From an uncultured Pelagibacteraceae bacterium (GTDB lineage Bacteria > Pseudomonadota > Alphaproteobacteria > Pelagibacterales > Pelagibacteraceae): a stretch of DNA of 60,231 nt. Made by a program: the position numbers and the translations under genes. How positions within the stretch are numbered: the stretch's first letter is position 1; every line of letters begins with the position of its first letter. The notes under the pieces were generated by a model. It was not told the DNA's origin. It saw nothing but the letters and a program-made list of their open reading frames with translations, and made no database searches. The DNA is taken from NCBI GenBank assembly GCA_902594865.1, contig CACJNV010000006.1, positions 1 through 60,231 on the forward strand. Direction: 5' to 3'. Positions 50,583 through 56,718 of this stretch are shown piece after piece.

Positions 50583-53063
50583 ATGACTAAAAATAAGATT
50601 ACAGCTGTTCTCGGTCCGACCAATACAGGTAAGACCCATCTTGCTATTGAAACTATGCTTTCTTTTGAGAGTGGAATGATTGGATTTCCACTTAGATTAC
50701 TCGCAAGAGAAGTATATGACAAAGTAATCAAGAAAATAAATTTAGATAAAGTTGCATTAATAACTGGTGAGGAAAAAATCATTCCATCTAATGCTAAATA
50801 TTTTTTATGTACAGTTGAGTCTATGCCAATTGATAAACATCTAGAGTTTGTTGGTGTGGATGAAATTCAAATGTGTGCTGATCATGAAAGAGGTCATATT
50901 TTTACTGATAGACTTTTAAATATGAGAGGAGAAAAACTTACAATGTTGATGGGTTCAAGTACCATTAAAAATATTATTTCAAAATTAGATGGAGATATTG
51001 AGTTCATTAATAGAGAAAGACTATCTAAACTTACTTACGCTGGTCATAAAAAAATATCAAGAATTAACAGAAAAACAGCAATCATTGCATTTTCAGCAGA
51101 GGAGGTTTATGCCATTGCTGAATTAATAAGAAGACAAAAGGGTGGTGCCGCTATTGTAATGGGATCACTAAGTCCAAAAACAAGAAATGCTCAAGTTGAA
51201 TTATATCAATCTGGGGATGTTGATTTCTTAGTTGCAACAGATGCTATTGGAATGGGAATAAATATGGATTTAGATTTTGTTTACTTTTCAAATATTAAGA
51301 AATTTGATGGAAAAAAATTGAGAAGGTTAAATCTATCTGAAATAGGTCAAATAGCAGGTAGAGCTGGTCGATACCTGAACGACGGTAGTTTTGGTATTAC
51401 TGGTGATTGTAAAGAAATAACTCCAGAAGAAGTAGAGTTGTTAGAAAATCATAAATTTGAAGAAATTCGAACTTTGTTTTGGAGAAATTCAAATCTTAAT
51501 TTCAATAATCCAAATAGTTTAATTAAAAGTTTAGAAGAAAAACCTCAGGTGGGATGGCTAAGAAAAATTCATGAATGTGAGGATGAAAAAGCGCTTAAAT
51601 ATTTTTTAAAAGATCAAAAAATTTTGAATAAAGGATTTGATAAGAAAACTCTAATACTTTTATGGGAATGTTGCCAAATACCTGATTTTGTTAAAAAAAC
51701 TTATGGAAATCATTTTGAGGTTATTGGAAATGTATTTAAATTTTTAACAACCAAAAAAGGACTAATTTCTGAAGATTATATGAGGTTACAGCTAATGAAA
51801 CTTGATAAATTAGACGGAAATGTAGATTCTTTATCAAATAGAATTGCAAATGTCAGAACTTGGTCATATGTTTCAAATAAAAATAATTGGGTAGAAAATC
51901 AAAGTTATTGGATAGAAAAAACTAAATATTTAGAAGACAGACTTTCAGATAGATTACATGAAGAACTTACTAAAACTTTTATTGACAAAAGAGCAAGTGT
52001 ACTCGCTAGAGGTTTAAAACAAGATATGGAATTTAAAACTGAAATTTTACAAAACAATGACGTTAAAATTGATGATCAATTTATTGGAAAGATTAAAGGA
52101 CTAAAATTAGAACTAGATCTAAAAAAAGGTGCTTTAGAAACTGATATTAAATCTTTAAAAAAAGCAGCCAGACAAACTATTGGTCCGGAATTAGAAAAAC
52201 GTGTTCAATCAATAATTGATACAGGACTAATAAATTTGAATGAAGATTTTAAAATTTATTGGAATGATTTCCCAATTGCCAAATTAACAACAGGTAGTGA
52301 CTATTTAAATCCTAATTTTGATTTAGTTGTTGATGATATTATTGAACAAAACACTAAACAAAAATTAAATGATTACATTAACAAATGGATACATGCAAAA
52401 ATAAATAATGTTCTTAAAAGTTTAATTGATTTAAAAAATATAAAAGAAAATAATTCATCAATTAAAGCACTGGCATACCAGCTCTATGAAAATAATGGGG
52501 TATTAAAACGAGACCAAGTTTCTGAGTACTTAAAAAACCTAGAACAAAATGAGAGAAAAATTCTTAGAGACTTAGGGGTAAAGTTTGGAAGATACCATGT
52601 TTTCCTTTATCAATTGATTAAGCCAGAAGCAGTATCTTTACGAACATTGTTATGGAAAAATTTTTATCAAAAATTCCATAATTTAAAACCACCTACCTTT
52701 GGTTTAAATTTTTTAGACAATAAAGAAATAAAAAATAAAAACTTTATGCTTTTATGTGGATTTGAAAGATTTGATAATTTTTTTGTAAGAATTGATATTT
52801 TGGAAAGATTATTTGTATTAATAATAAATTCTAGTTCAAAGGAAAATTCTGAAATAAAATTAATTCCAGAAATGTTAAATCTTTTAGGATGTAGTAAAGA
52901 TAATTTTAAAAAATTACTTCAAAAAATGAGTTATAAAATATTTGAAAAAGAAAATGAAACCTTTTTTAAATATAGTCCTACTAAGAAATTTAAAAAAATT
53001 ACTTCAAAGAAGATCTCAAATGAAAATCCATTTAAAATATTAAAAAATTTAAATTTAAGTTAA
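50583..53063 (+). CDS. Suv3-like superfamily II RNA helicase
   Basis: An 826-residue helicase of the SUV3 type known from alphaproteobacteria and mitochondria. Walker A is GPTNTGKT (11-18), motif II is DEIQ (93-96) and motif VI is QIAGRAGRY (256-264), with ATDAIGMGINMDLD (about 218-231) as motif V. The long C-terminal half (280-826) is family-specific and of unknown role. In mitochondria SUV3 works in RNA degradation with a 3' exonuclease. TerB-like, fdxA and carD follow closely, so the gene heads a four-gene operon. Confidence 0.9.
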   Translation: MTKNKITAVLGPTNTGKTHLAIETMLSFESGMIGFPLRLLAREVYDKVIKKINLDKVALITGEEKIIPSNAKYFLCTVESMPIDKHLEFVGVDEIQMCADHERGHIFTDRLLNMRGEKLTMLMGSSTIKNIISKLDGDIEFINRERLSKLTYAGHKKISRINRKTAIIAFSAEEVYAIAELIRRQKGGAAIVMGSLSPKTRNAQVELYQSGDVDFLVATDAIGMGINMDLDFVYFSNIKKFDGKKLRRLNLSEIGQIAGRAGRYLNDGSFGITGDCKEITPEEVELLENHKFEEIRTLFWRNSNLNFNNPNSLIKSLEEKPQVGWLRKIHECEDEKALKYFLKDQKILNKGFDKKTLILLWECCQIPDFVKKTYGNHFEVIGNVFKFLTTKKGLISEDYMRLQLMKLDKLDGNVDSLSNRIANVRTWSYVSNKNNWVENQSYWIEKTKYLEDRLSDRLHEELTKTFIDKRASVLARGLKQDMEFKTEILQNNDVKIDDQFIGKIKGLKLELDLKKGALETDIKSLKKAARQTIGPELEKRVQSIIDTGLINLNEDFKIYWNDFPIAKLTTGSDYLNPNFDLVVDDIIEQNTKQKLNDYINKWIHAKINNVLKSLIDLKNIKENNSSIKALAYQLYENNGVLKRDQVSEYLKNLEQNERKILRDLGVKFGRYHVFLYQLIKPEAVSLRTLLWKNFYQKFHNLKPPTFGLNFLDNKEIKNKNFMLLCGFERFDNFFVRIDILERLFVLIINSSSKENSEIKLIPEMLNLLGCSKDNFKKLLQKMSYKIFEKENETFFKYSPTKKFKKITSKKISNENPFKILKNLNLS

Positions 53064-53064
53064 A

Positions 53065-53475
53065 ATGTTTTTTAAAAAAGAAGAAATAAAAAATGATAAT
53101 TTTCTTACAAAAGTTTGTGCTTTATTAATTCACGCTGCTAAAATAGATGAGAATTATACTGATAAAGAGGAAGAAATTATTAAAAAAACACTTAAAGAGC
53201 TTGGTGTAGAAGATGAAAATATTCCTAAAACAATTGAAGATGCAAAAGTAATTGAAGAAAACTCAAATCAAATTTTAGATTTTACTAAAGAAGTTAAAAA
53301 TTTACCTGAACAAGACAAAATTAAAATCATAGAGGCTTTATGGTCTATCATTTACTCAAACAATGATGCCGATATATACGAAACTAATTTAATGAGACGA
53401 CTTGCGGGATTACTTTATATTGACAATAAAACCATGGGCGATATTAAAGAAAAAATTAAACAAAATTCAAAATGA
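53065..53475 (+). CDS. TerB-family protein
   Basis: A 136-residue all-helical protein with the TerB tellurite-resistance-like pattern: [26 protein letters not shown] (about 14-39) with an acidic metal-binding-like loop, then [32 protein letters not shown] (about 91-122). TerB proteins bind divalent metal ions and are widespread outside tellurite resistance; the role here is unknown. It starts one base after the helicase stop and overlaps fdxA by 4 bases. Confidence 0.83.
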
Positions 53476-53798
53476 CTTATATCGTTAACGACAATTGTAT
53501 TAAGTGCAAACTAACAGACTGTGTTGATGTCTGCCCGGTTGATTGCTTTTACGAAGGTAAAAATATGCTTGTAATTAAACCCGATGAGTGTATAGATTGT
53601 GGCGTTTGCGAGCCAGAATGTCCTGTCGATGCCATAAAAGCAGACACCGAACCTGGAAGTGAAAAATGGTTAGAGATCAATAAAAAGTATTCTGAAATCT
53701 GGCCTAACATAAGTGAAAAAAAAGATCCACCTGCGGATCACGAGAAATTTAAAAATGAGCAAAATAAGTACGAAAAATATTTTAAAGAAAATCTTTAA
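53472..53798 (+). CDS. fdxA: 7Fe ferredoxin FdxA
   Basis: A 108-residue bacterial ferredoxin with two cysteine-rich motifs. C9, C12, C17, C21 and C25 lie in the first ([17 protein letters not shown]), and [12 protein letters not shown] (about 40-51) forms the second. This layout fits a 3Fe-4S plus 4Fe-4S electron carrier of the FdxA type with a C-terminal extension of about 45 residues. The redox partners are unknown. Its last 44 bases overlap the start of carD, and it overlaps terB by 4 bases. Confidence 0.94.
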
Positions 53799-54633
53799 AA
53801 GCAAAACAAACAAAAAAGTGAAAAAAAAAGTTTCTAAAAAGAAGGTTGTAAAAGCTAAAAAAGCAAAAAAAATAATTTCAAAAAAAGTCAAAAAAGTTGT
53901 TAAAAAAGTTTCACCTAAAAAAAGTAAAATAAAAAAAACTGTTAAAGTTGCAGAAACAACAGCTGAGCCAAAAGTAGATAATTTAAGAATTTCAAAAACA
54001 AACGAAGTTAAGCCTGAGATAAAAAAAGTTAAAAAGCAAGAAACCGAAAAAAGAGAATACAAAATTAAAGATCATGTTGTTTATCCAAAACATGGGGTGG
54101 GGCAAATTACTGAATTTAAAAAAATTAACATTGGCGGAATTGATGTTGAAACATATGTTATTAAATTTGAAAAAGATAAAGCTAATGGAATGGTCCCTGT
54201 AAACAAACAATCTCACCTAAGGCCGTTAGCAACTATTAACCAAGTTAACAAGTGCATTTCAATATTAAAAAGCAAACCAAAAATAAAAAGGTCAATGTGG
54301 AGTCGAAGAGCACAAGAATATGAAGCTAAAATCTCTTCAGGAAAAATATATGAGTTGGCTGAAGTTGTTAGAGATTTAAATAAAGGTGATGATCTAATGG
54401 TTGATCAATCTTATAGTGAAAGACAATTGTTTGAAAAAGCCTATGAAAGGATTTTGTCTGAATTTCAGATTGTTTTGAATGTTTCTTTAGAGGATACTCA
54501 GAAAAAATTAGATAAAGCATTAAAAAGGAATTTAGGTGGACAGCCCCAACCAGTAGCAACTCCAAAAAATCCAACTAGTGAGCTACCTGTAGACGAGCCA
54601 ATTTCTGATAGCGACGAGCCAATTGAAGAGTAA
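53755..54633 (+). CDS. CarD/CdnL-family regulator with lysine-rich N-terminal tail
   Basis: A 292-residue protein from ATG 53755 (an upstream in-frame start would lie deeper inside fdxA). Residues 102-260 form a CarD domain ([19 protein letters not shown] onward), which binds RNA polymerase beta and stabilises open promoters, especially of rRNA and growth genes. Residues 7-64 contain 30 lysines, with valine, serine and alanine between, resembling a histone H1 tail. A short acidic tail ends the protein. CarD without this extension is about 160-190 residues, so the tail is a striking addition. Confidence 0.88.
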
Positions 54634-54675
54634 AAAAAACGCCTCTCACACAAACTGTAATGAGAAGCGTTTTTT
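54634..54675. terminator. Bidirectional hairpin terminator behind carD and the basic small ORF
   Basis: AAAAAACGC-C-TCTCA and TGAGA-A-GCG-TTTTTT pair with one mismatch around a 12-base loop. It starts right after the carD stop and ends 18 bases before the stop of the opposed small basic ORF. Its A- and T-runs allow use from both directions. Confidence 0.85.
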
Positions 54676-54693: not shown

Positions 54694-54786
54694 CTATTTT
54701 CTTCTTCTTTTTTTTGCTTTTTTCTTAGCTTTTTTCTTAGCTTTTTTCTTAGTTTTCTTTGCCGCTTTTTTTCTTTTCTTAGGCAT
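54694..54786 (-). CDS. 30-residue extremely basic histone H1-like small protein
   Basis: A 30-codon ORF ending in TAG with 18 Lys and 4 Arg of 30 residues, arranged as K-K-K-A repeats and closing with KKRRRK. The start has a strong GGGAG Shine-Dalgarno 6 bases before the ATG. A TTGACA -35 (54862-54867), a perfect hairpin in the leader and a terminator behind the stop frame it. The composition is that of a DNA- or RNA-binding tail rather than an enzyme. Codons repeat as GCT-AAG-AAA-AAA, so it contains a 12-base tandem repeat. It lies opposite carD, whose N-terminus is also lysine-rich. Confidence 0.72.
   Translation of the reverse strand: MPKKRKKAAKKTKKKAKKKAKKKAKKRRRK
54716..54752. repeat. 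12-base tandem repeat inside the basic ORF
   Basis: The unit AGCTTTTTTCTT (plus strand) is repeated about three times with the last unit diverging. It encodes the K-K-K-A periods of the small protein. Such units can change number by slippage, which would alter the protein by four residues per unit. Confidence 0.7.
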
Positions 54787-54810
54787 CTTTAGCTCCCTTT
54801 TTTAGTTAAA

Positions 54811-54827
54811 CGAATCAAAATGATTCG
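54811..54827. promoter_or_regulatory. Perfect 7-bp hairpin in the leader of the basic ORF
   Basis: CGAATCA-AAA-TGATTCG is a perfect inverted repeat. It lies between the presumed promoter and the Shine-Dalgarno of the small basic ORF, about 25 bases before its start codon. It may be an operator or a 5' mRNA stem. Confidence 0.5.
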
Positions 54828-54861
54828 CTGTTAACATATTTTTATTTTTTTCTATAAGTTA

Positions 54862-54867
54862 TGTCAA
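54862..54867 (-). promoter_or_regulatory. -35 element TTGACA upstream of the basic small ORF
   Basis: The minus strand reads TTGACA exactly, 76 bases before the start codon. The -10 is uncertain: A/T-only sequence such as TAAAAA sits at 17 bases, and TATGTT at 23 bases is too far. The surrounding DNA from 54787 to 54987 has no ORF. Confidence 0.45.
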
Positions 54868-54987: not shown

Positions 54988-56718
54988 TTAATAAAGATTT
55001 TCTAGCTGATTTTTATATTTTTCTGTAACTTTTTTTCTTTTTACTTTCATTGTTGGTGTCATTAAACCATTTTCAATAGAGAAATTTTCATCTATTAATT
55101 GAATTCTTTTTATCTTTTCTATTAAAGTTAATTTTACATTTATTTTTTCAATTACTTTATTTATTTTTTCTTTTTCATTTAAAAAATCTTTATTAGGAAC
55201 AATTAAAGCAACTAAGTAATTTTTTTTATCACCATAAACCATACATTGATCTATCTCAGGCTCATTTGAAATCATATTTTCGATTTTAGCAGGTGAAATG
55301 TTATCTCCGCCAGCACTTACTATGATATCTTTTTTTCTATCAGTAATTTTTAAATAACCATCATTTGGATCTATCTCTCCAATATCACCTGTATGTAACC
55401 ATCCATTTATAATTACTTTGTCAGTTTCTTCTTTTTTGTTCCAATATCCTAGCATTACATTTTCGCCTTTGACTAAAATTTCTCCATCTTCAGCAATTTT
55501 AACTTCATTTCCTTTAAATGGAGGGCCTACAGTTTCCACTTTTATTTTGTGTATTGGATTGCAACTTACTACTGGTGATGTTTCTGTTAAACCATAACCT
55601 TGAAGAGTAGGCAGCCCGACAGAATTCAAAAATTCTCCTATTTCTTTGTCTAGCGCCCCACCACCTGAAACAAAAGCTTTCAAGTTTCCACCGAACTGTT
55701 TTTTTATTTTTTTTCTTACCAATTTATCAACTATAGAATTAAGTAATTTTTCAAAAAATGACATTTTTTGATTTAATAGTTTTTTTCTTCCTAGACGAAG
55801 TGTTGCTTCAATTAATTTTGCTTTAAAACCTGTCTGCTTTTTCAAATTCATGTTTATTTTATTGTAAAGGTTTTGGTAGAACCTTGGAACAGCTGTCATA
55901 ATTGTAGGTTTTGCTTCAGATATATTTTCTAAAAGTTTTTCTATTTTTTCTGCATAGAATACTTTTGCCCCAACAGCTATCTGTGCAAATTGAACACTAT
56001 GCTCATAAGAATGTGAAAGAGGAAGCCAAGTTAAAAATACTGGTCTTGAGTTAAATAACGGTTTCATAATTTCGCATGCTCCTACGAGATTATTTAAAAT
56101 TCCACCATGACTTAATATTACTCCTTTAGGATTACCTCCAGTCCCAGAAGTATAAATAATACAAGCAGGAGAATTTCTTTTTAATTTATTATTTTCAATT
56201 TTATCTTCTTCTAATAAATTATTCTTTAGAATTGAATTTAAATCTAAATATTTTTCTTTTTTAATTATATTTAAACTATTTGTTGCCTTGGCTTTTTCAT
56301 CTAGAGTAATAACTTTTTTGATAAAGTCTTTTTCATTAATTGAATTATTTAATTTTTTTAACATTTCATTGTTTGAAACAACAACTAAGCTAGGCTCGCA
56401 ATCTTTTATCAAGTACTTATAATCATCTTCTGTATAAGTTGTATATGCTGGAACTGTAATTCCACCAGCCACCATAATAGCTAAATCAGAAACAAACCAC
56501 TCTGGTCTATTCTCCGAAACTAAAAGACATCTGTCGCCTTCTTTTATATTTTCTTTAATTACTTTTGATAATTTTAAAATATTCTTTTCAGTTTGTTCCC
56601 ATGTATATGTTTTTTTATCGCTTGGATTTAGCCATTCTAAAAAAATATCTTTTTTATTTTGTTTATTTGCTTGATTAACAAATAATTCGATCAAATTATT
56701 TAAATTATTTAAATTCAT
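54988..56718 (-). CDS. Long-chain fatty acid-CoA ligase (AMP-forming)
   Basis: A 576-residue adenylate-forming enzyme that activates fatty acids as acyl-CoA. The AMP-binding signature ACIIYTSGTGGNPKGVILSHGG (about 187-208) and YGLTETSPV (about 371) are present. WLHTGDIGEIDPNDGYLKITDRKKD (about 441-465) marks the hinge, and a short basic C-terminus carries the catalytic lysine region (NGLMTPTMKVKRKKV). Length is in the FadD15/ACSL range. It begins 7 bases from tRNA-Leu, which is transcribed just ahead of it. Confidence 0.93.
   Translation of the reverse strand: MNLNNLNNLIELFVNQANKQNKKDIFLEWLNPSDKKTYTWEQTEKNILKLSKVIKENIKEGDRCLLVSENRPEWFVSDLAIMVAGGITVPAYTTYTEDDYKYLIKDCEPSLVVVSNNEMLKKLNNSINEKDFIKKVITLDEKAKATNSLNIIKKEKYLDLNSILKNNLLEEDKIENNKLKRNSPACIIYTSGTGGNPKGVILSHGGILNNLVGACEIMKPLFNSRPVFLTWLPLSHSYEHSVQFAQIAVGAKVFYAEKIEKLLENISEAKPTIMTAVPRFYQNLYNKINMNLKKQTGFKAKLIEATLRLGRKKLLNQKMSFFEKLLNSIVDKLVRKKIKKQFGGNLKAFVSGGGALDKEIGEFLNSVGLPTLQGYGLTETSPVVSCNPIHKIKVETVGPPFKGNEVKIAEDGEILVKGENVMLGYWNKKEETDKVIINGWLHTGDIGEIDPNDGYLKITDRKKDIIVSAGGDNISPAKIENMISNEPEIDQCMVYGDKKNYLVALIVPNKDFLNEKEKINKVIEKINVKLTLIEKIKRIQLIDENFSIENGLMTPTMKVKRKKVTEKYKNQLENLY

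Follow-up and report, generated by a model that had tools for sequence, protein, structure and literature searches.

SAR11 genomes almost certainly carry, throughout the order and at a fixed place beside carD, a protein gene which can be followed by its sequence features and which encodes a very small and extremely basic peptide. This peptide (~20-60 residues, almost all Lys, Arg or Ala) is likely to adhere to DNA or RNA. We consider it somewhat probable that it is a stand-alone polycation, a miniature counterpart of histone H1 or protamines, which binds nucleic acid and most likely the nucleoid. SAR11 bacteria are among the most abundant cell lineages of the ocean and possess strongly streamlined genomes. 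The peptide gene is likely important, since it has been kept beside carD in 98 of the 99 readable neighbourhoods, which belong to two families.

The window, that is, the whole 60,231-nt stretch of DNA analysed (G+C 29%), holds the following features at this locus:

54786-54694, minus strand: peptide ORF of 30 codons plus stop, with the product MPKKRKKAAKKTKKKAKKKAKKKAKKRRRK.
54797-54793, minus strand: Shine-Dalgarno sequence GGGAG, 6 nt upstream of the ATG.
54827-54811, minus strand: leader hairpin CGAATCA-TTT-TGATTCG, an exact 7-bp dyad with GANTC in both arms.
54844-54839, minus strand: candidate -10 box TAAAAA, proposed from the sequence, with a 17-nt spacer to the -35 box.
54867-54862, minus strand: -35 box TTGACA.
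54634-54675, bidirectional: terminator hairpin located between the stop codons of carD and of the peptide ORF, with a T-run on each strand.
53755-54633, plus strand: carD, with CarD_TRCF_RID and CarD_C domains; convergent neighbour and synteny anchor.
54988-56718, minus strand: AMP-binding (acyl-CoA synthetase-like) gene, which flanks the peptide gene on the side away from carD and has the same orientation.

The TTGACA box, the perfect 7-bp hairpin in the leader, the strong Shine-Dalgarno sequence and the shared terminator, which together formed the basis of the original prediction, were all located in the sequence. The terminator at 54634-54675 is common to carD on the plus strand and to the peptide gene on the minus strand. 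A downstream hairpin was likewise found in 9/9 loci among those listed, the one of L118 having no T-run directly after it, and a run of five T lies within 90 nt downstream of the peptide gene in 95 of 98 cases. The AMP-binding neighbour is present in 45/45 stretches of the window's genus and in 32/32 from other genera of its family, but in 0/19 from the second family (stretches longer than 1000 bases), so that the linkage to carD is the constant one. An RNA-family search of the window returned three tRNAs only.

Several other features surround carD itself. The open-reading-frame list contains an alternative longer start for this gene (GTG at 53713), and upstream of it, on the same strand (50583-53798), are encoded a Suv3-like helicase, a TerB-domain protein and the ferredoxin FdxA. 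In the window's genus, CarD has a Lys-rich N-terminal extension with 34 Lys or Arg in its first 85 residues (53755-54060, plus strand). The open frames around CarD reach ~270-325 codons in most of this genus (186 in G164) versus 210-247 in genus g4, and CarD may possibly have gained an H1-like tail of its own.

The composition of the peptide is unusual in its simplicity. In the window, 73% of the residues are Lys or Arg, and neither acidic residues nor Val, Leu, Ile, Phe, Tyr or Trp occur. The 79 peptides sampled in the same family are 20-36 residues long, use only Met, Lys, Arg, Ala, Thr, Pro, Gly and Ser, and carry no further domain; all 79 lack Asp and Glu and contain 15-25 Lys plus Arg, while Pro is found 32 times in total, 28 of them as residue 2. 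The charges are unevenly distributed, Lys filling the middle and Arg the ends: Arg accounts for 1% of the peptide middle, and the last six residues include three or more Arg in 68/79 peptides. As Arg is concentrated at the ends although both residues are positive, the choice between Lys and Arg appears to be held by position. From its chemistry, a peptide lacking negative and bulky hydrophobic residues should bind polyanions rather than fold alone.

Direct BLAST with the 30-mer gave matches in 23 of the 197 genomes of the family, which is an undercount judged by the synteny search. Since BLAST with 30 low-complexity residues finds little, carD was taken as the anchor; it was found in 162/197 family genomes, 101/117 order genomes (these sets overlap) and 129/144 class genomes. 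The DNA following carD was taken from same-genus genomes (48), from other genera of the family (ten genera, 32 genomes), from the second family of the order (20 genomes) and from other families of the class (40 genomes), and was scanned in six frames for an ATG-initiated ORF of 12-119 residues with more than 40% Lys plus Arg, and misses were inspected. In the window's genus, an intact K/R-rich ORF, convergent with carD and directly downstream of it, was present in all 48 readable neighbourhoods (the window included; L062, at a contig end, left out). In the ten other genera, 31 of 32 neighbourhoods carry an intact ORF so placed and oriented (with a GTG start in L102), as do 19/19 readable ones in the second family of the order, L108 being cut and left out. 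Together with the coding constraint described below, these counts bear out the proposal of a stand-alone, overlooked gene. Frame breaks in close relatives, on which this proposal had been staked, were seen in 0/48 same-genus loci and, among the 32 loci of other genera, in L075, whose frame overruns. L075 (G006:C5), in which the frame runs past its usual end, is the sole disrupted copy among the 99 readable ones and may reflect a real loss or an assembly error alike.

Outside these two families, the 40 genomes from other alphaproteobacterial families showed no ATG ORF with more than 40% Lys plus Arg at that place beside carD, and five K/R-rich ORFs of 12-14 residues located elsewhere in these 40 stretches look like chance. 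Independently of carD, a scan of the collection with the leader-Shine-Dalgarno-start pattern matched at least 120 stretches, of which 80 loci were listed, one of them (L255) being 'Candidatus Pelagibacter ubique' SCGC AAA795-O20. Among those listed, 51/51 loci titled SAR11 or Pelagibacterales continue into the peptide (72-83% Lys plus Arg), versus 0/29 of the unrelated, otherwise-titled loci (7-33% in all 29). A chance ORF in A-rich DNA could be invoked, AAA codons being common at 29% G+C, but this explanation is refuted both by the latter comparison and by a place conserved through two families, and its probability is vanishingly small.

Searches by sequence similarity at larger scale were less informative. 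A profile search of 241 alphaproteobacterial genomes recovered the window alone (E 0.2) and missed the carriers G003 and G009, the 27-position low-complexity profile having little power. With the second-family protein as query, 69/241 genomes showed matches at an E-value of 1 or below, the best being 0.001; many of them lie in long or stop-containing frames, and they were read as shared composition. For the other alphaproteobacterial families, the absence of the gene thus applies to the place next to carD. Viral contigs contained 0 exact matches to one peptide pattern, which is a narrow test of a phage origin.

Base changes between nearest relatives (n=98) are distributed over codon positions 1:2:3 as 11:25:62, with 55 synonymous and 28 non-synonymous changed codons, these figures being simple counts which are uncorrected for mutation bias and in which AAA/AAG transitions weigh heavily. 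In addition, each of the 12 groups of equal-length copies gave a pN/pS lower than 1 (0.00-0.60), some of these groups holding one to few changes. At the sequence level, the substitutions show coding constraint on the peptide ORF, and the amino-acid pattern, i.e., composition and Arg placement, is stronger coding evidence than the substitution counts.

The length of the product varies widely. In the second family, the gene has 40-99 codons (MEELKVIFAKARKKAKKKAAPKKKRKAAKRKP...) with KAAPKKK repeats, and its product resembles a histone H1 tail. It has been called orthologous on the basis of the same place, orientation and leader, whereas amino-acid similarity alone would not decide. Within the window's own family, G022 has a 38-residue form and G040 (L308) a 58-residue form (MAKKRKKAAKKKVAKKPAKRKVAKKKPAAKKRKPAAKKKAPAKK...) with KPAA repeats and Val; the latter was met via the promoter pattern only and appears to bridge the gap from the short to the H1-like form. 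The resemblance to an isolated H1 tail, already pointed out in the original prediction, is strengthened by these longer orthologues. Across the order, peptide length spans 20-99 residues and repeat number varies, which speaks for a tail-like role more than for a fitted one.

This length variation bears directly on the possibility that the peptide is a very small basic protein bound to the ribosome and seated in rRNA, like bTHX or eL41. Such a role would agree with a size of mostly 20-36 residues, with the extreme basicity, with the presence of GGGAG or GGAGG in 97/99 leaders and with the occurrence of the gene in all readable loci of the window's genus and of the second family. It would also agree with the structured leader, as reported before some SAR11 ribosomal genes (PMC2704228). 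However, a repeat-driven spread from 20 to 99 residues could hardly be borne by a fitted ribosomal protein, aromatic residues are absent from all 79 family peptides, which thus have no aromatic anchor, and no PDB chain matched in a weak search. A ribosomal role is accordingly regarded as unlikely, and is placed next after nucleoid binding.

The region ahead of the gene is strongly conserved. CGAATC is present in 99/99 leaders (98 genes and L075), within or at the foot of the hairpin. TTGAC starts 38-42 nt before it in 97/99 leaders (L053 and L067 are shortened by contig ends). GGGAG or GGAGG, where present (97/99), lies within 16 nt of the start. Every distinct leader folds to a hairpin holding or adjoining CGAATC, and of the 79 distinct 40-nt leaders, 75 equal or exceed 95% of their own dinucleotide shuffles in stability. 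The 3' arm of the hairpin reads GATTCG in all 48 loci of the window's genus. Of the 26 other unshifted family loci, 18 have GATTTG (with a G.U pair) and 8 have GATTCG, while the 19 second-family loci carry GATTCA or GATTCT. The stem has moved 3' in six loci (L083-L086, L102 and L103), mostly as AUCAC.../...GUGAU. Since the G.U and shifted forms keep the RNA hairpin and break the DNA palindrome, an RNA role for the hairpin is favoured. The invariant 5' arm leaves little compensatory change to be counted, and the invariance of this CGAATC arm calls for a second reason besides the hairpin.

Pattern counts across genomes make the leader element look specific for the peptide gene. The leader dyad is the sole match to CGAATCAN{1,9}TGATTYG in the window's genome, and the pattern occurs in 12/41 relatives, in 11 of them as one palindromic copy ahead of the peptide gene; in G203, the match is imperfect and is not ahead of this gene. 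The 29 relatives without the pattern include G078, whose own leader reads CGAATCG (L045). Similarly, TTGACN{33,37}CGAATC was found at the peptide gene in 14/14 genomes searched, 11 of which have no other match, while the extra matches in G000 (one), G197 (one) and G198 (two) do not precede such an ORF; the reversed-pattern control gave 0-4 matches per genome. A SAR11-wide regulon motif was therefore rejected, the dyad and the promoter-CGAATC pattern being nearly confined to the peptide gene. A leader peptide or attenuator was also discarded, as no same-direction gene precedes the terminator and convergent carD comes next. The order-wide distribution, the position-locked CGAATC and carD as constant neighbour go beyond what had been predicted from the window.

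In the leaders of the second family (L105-L124), the segment between hairpin and start consists of ACCTCTAAC(T/G)AAAC, CCC, a few nucleotides, GGG and the Shine-Dalgarno sequence. In L111 and L112, CCC/GGG is replaced by CGC/GCG, which is a two-sided change. Pairing of these triplets could hide the Shine-Dalgarno sequence and makes the element a candidate translation switch.

Alternatively, the transcript might act mainly as RNA, either with a dual function or as an antisense on the 3' end of carD, the peptide being secondary. The invariant leader CGAATC and the convergence with carD, including the terminator in common, would agree with this proposal; it is nonetheless highly improbable in view of the codon-position bias (11:25:62), the placement of Lys and Arg, the conserved Shine-Dalgarno sequence and the lack of overlap between the ORF and carD. 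Known SAR11 RNA motifs are located before the S2, S12 and SRP-protein genes, and for four weaker motifs other flanking genes are given, carD not being named in the available portions of that report (PMC2704228).

The GAATC present in 99/99 leaders matches GANTC, the sequence targeted by CcrM, and gives the peptide gene a GANTC site in its promoter region, a trait of CcrM/GcrA-controlled genes. By position, CGAATC falls just inside the expected transcript, and the bases flanking GAATC on both sides are also conserved. Among 41 relatives, the GcrA model was over cut-off in 35 and the N6/N4-methylase model in 34, the latter for the most part in frames with ~330-410 codons, about the size of CcrM; neither model was found in the window's own genome, which is 82% complete. 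SAR11 is reported to have a CcrM homologue (PMC3973325), and GcrA binding to depend on N6-adenosine methylation (PMC3667746). The window contains 83 GANTC sites versus ~159-169 expected (128 for the control CTNAG), a scarcity reported as a known bias of CcrM-bearing genomes (PMC3973325). Nine of these sites are outside ORFs of at least 100 codons, five being in tRNA genes and two in the leader hairpin. As such, methylation control of the peptide gene is at most suggested. A broader scheme, in which a mini-histone would package the SAR11 chromosome and its synthesis would be gated in the cell cycle by CcrM methylation of the invariant GAATC together with the hairpin, is doubtful, and somewhat more so than a ribosomal role.

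Returning to nucleic-acid binding, which we favour, we infer that the peptide is expressed and, from its composition, that it binds nucleic acid, its principal target being DNA and not RNA. A promoter of its own, of the sigma-70 type, would give rise to a short mRNA starting with a stable hairpin and ending at the terminator shared with carD. The hairpin could serve mRNA stability or translation control, and GAATC methylation could set timing. The Lys/Ala core of the peptide, predicted to be unstructured or weakly helical, would together with the Arg-rich ends neutralise phosphate and bind nucleic acid without sequence preference, most likely in the nucleoid, beside HU/IHF-type proteins. HU-family genes are present in 41/41 relatives, with two or three in 36 of the 41; compaction is thus already served, which counts against a nucleoid role, and the peptide would add to HU rather than replace it. 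Binding of rRNA, mRNA or polyphosphate fits the composition equally, which also counts against it. Collectively, nucleoid binding is ranked first, the ribosome second and other polyanions third.

Other polyanions, such as polyphosphate or mRNA, could be bound by a peptide organising granules or condensates, as does AlgP (also named AlgR3). The KAAPKKK repeats of the second family and the KPAA repeats of G040 resemble the KPAA repeats of AlgP. AlgP has been reported to bind DNA and to localise to polyphosphate granules (PMC9239181), and thereby offers both as targets. Against this, most SAR11 forms are bare tails while in AlgP the tail forms part of a larger protein as one of its domains, and no polyphosphate gene is among the neighbours examined at the locus; such a role is improbable, more so than the methylation-gated scheme.

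Database searches were of little power for so short and low-complexity a query, and Pfam, NCBIfam, PHROGs and PDB gave no match to the peptide, so that DNA as the target has no support from a homologue of known function. With six representatives and an E-value limit of 10, Pfam and NCBIfam gave either nothing or unrelated weak matches, again with limited power, and the peptide showed no Pfam match to PF00216 (HU/IHF). None was found either among PDB chains at E up to 10, with the 27-position low-complexity profile that recovers its own locus only at E 0.2. No report naming the peptide gene was found among the literature matches listed, by titles and abstract starts.

A gene which is both tiny and of low complexity is easily missed. 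Gene callers commonly use a 90-nt floor, and 57 of the 98 intact peptide genes are below 90 nt, in agreement with the earlier remark that the gene is too short for normal gene calling; moreover, in 74 of the 98 proteins none of the fully tryptic fragments exceeds 3 residues. Many copies would therefore be missed by callers with such a floor and by trypsin proteomics, and the peptide gene exposes this blind spot of both approaches. It also opens SAR11 nucleoid biology to test.

Comparison with known systems places the peptide among several families of small or repetitive polycations. bTHX of Thermus and the eukaryotic and archaeal eL41 are tiny ribosomal proteins of ~25 residues and are highly basic, and the SAR11 peptide is alike in size and basicity. 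Unlike these proteins, which have a nearly fixed length and non-basic anchor residues, it varies in length by repeats. Eukaryotic sperm protamines are short, with arginine-rich clusters and few other residues. The SAR11 peptide shares this shortness, the Arg-rich clusters and the few other residue kinds, but is bacterial, has a Lys core with Arg ends and gave no Pfam match. At 20-36 residues, such a bare polycation would to our knowledge be the smallest bacterial protein of the H1-like kind. AlgP of Pseudomonas has a histone-H1-like tail of the KPAA type (compare G040), for which DNA binding is reported; this 154-residue tail is however the C-terminal domain of a larger protein (PMC9239181), whereas the SAR11 forms are mostly bare peptides of 20-36 residues. 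The histone-H1-like proteins Hc1 and Hc2 (HctA and HctB) of Chlamydia and its relatives are likewise Lys/Ala-rich, very basic and variable in repeat number. Hc2 is longer, its 165-237 residues varying by lysine-rich repeats (PMC2848022), and the SAR11 locus differs by its place beside carD. The Hc1/Hc2-like Pfam model gave no match at E up to 10, HMMER filters dropping most weak matches. Variable-copy Lys/Ala-rich repeats, a trait of Hc-type proteins, are present in the forms of 20-36 residues (79), 40-99 residues (19) and 58 residues (one), and the KAAPKKK repeats of the second family and the 58-residue form of G040 are the nearest in style to Hc1 and Hc2.
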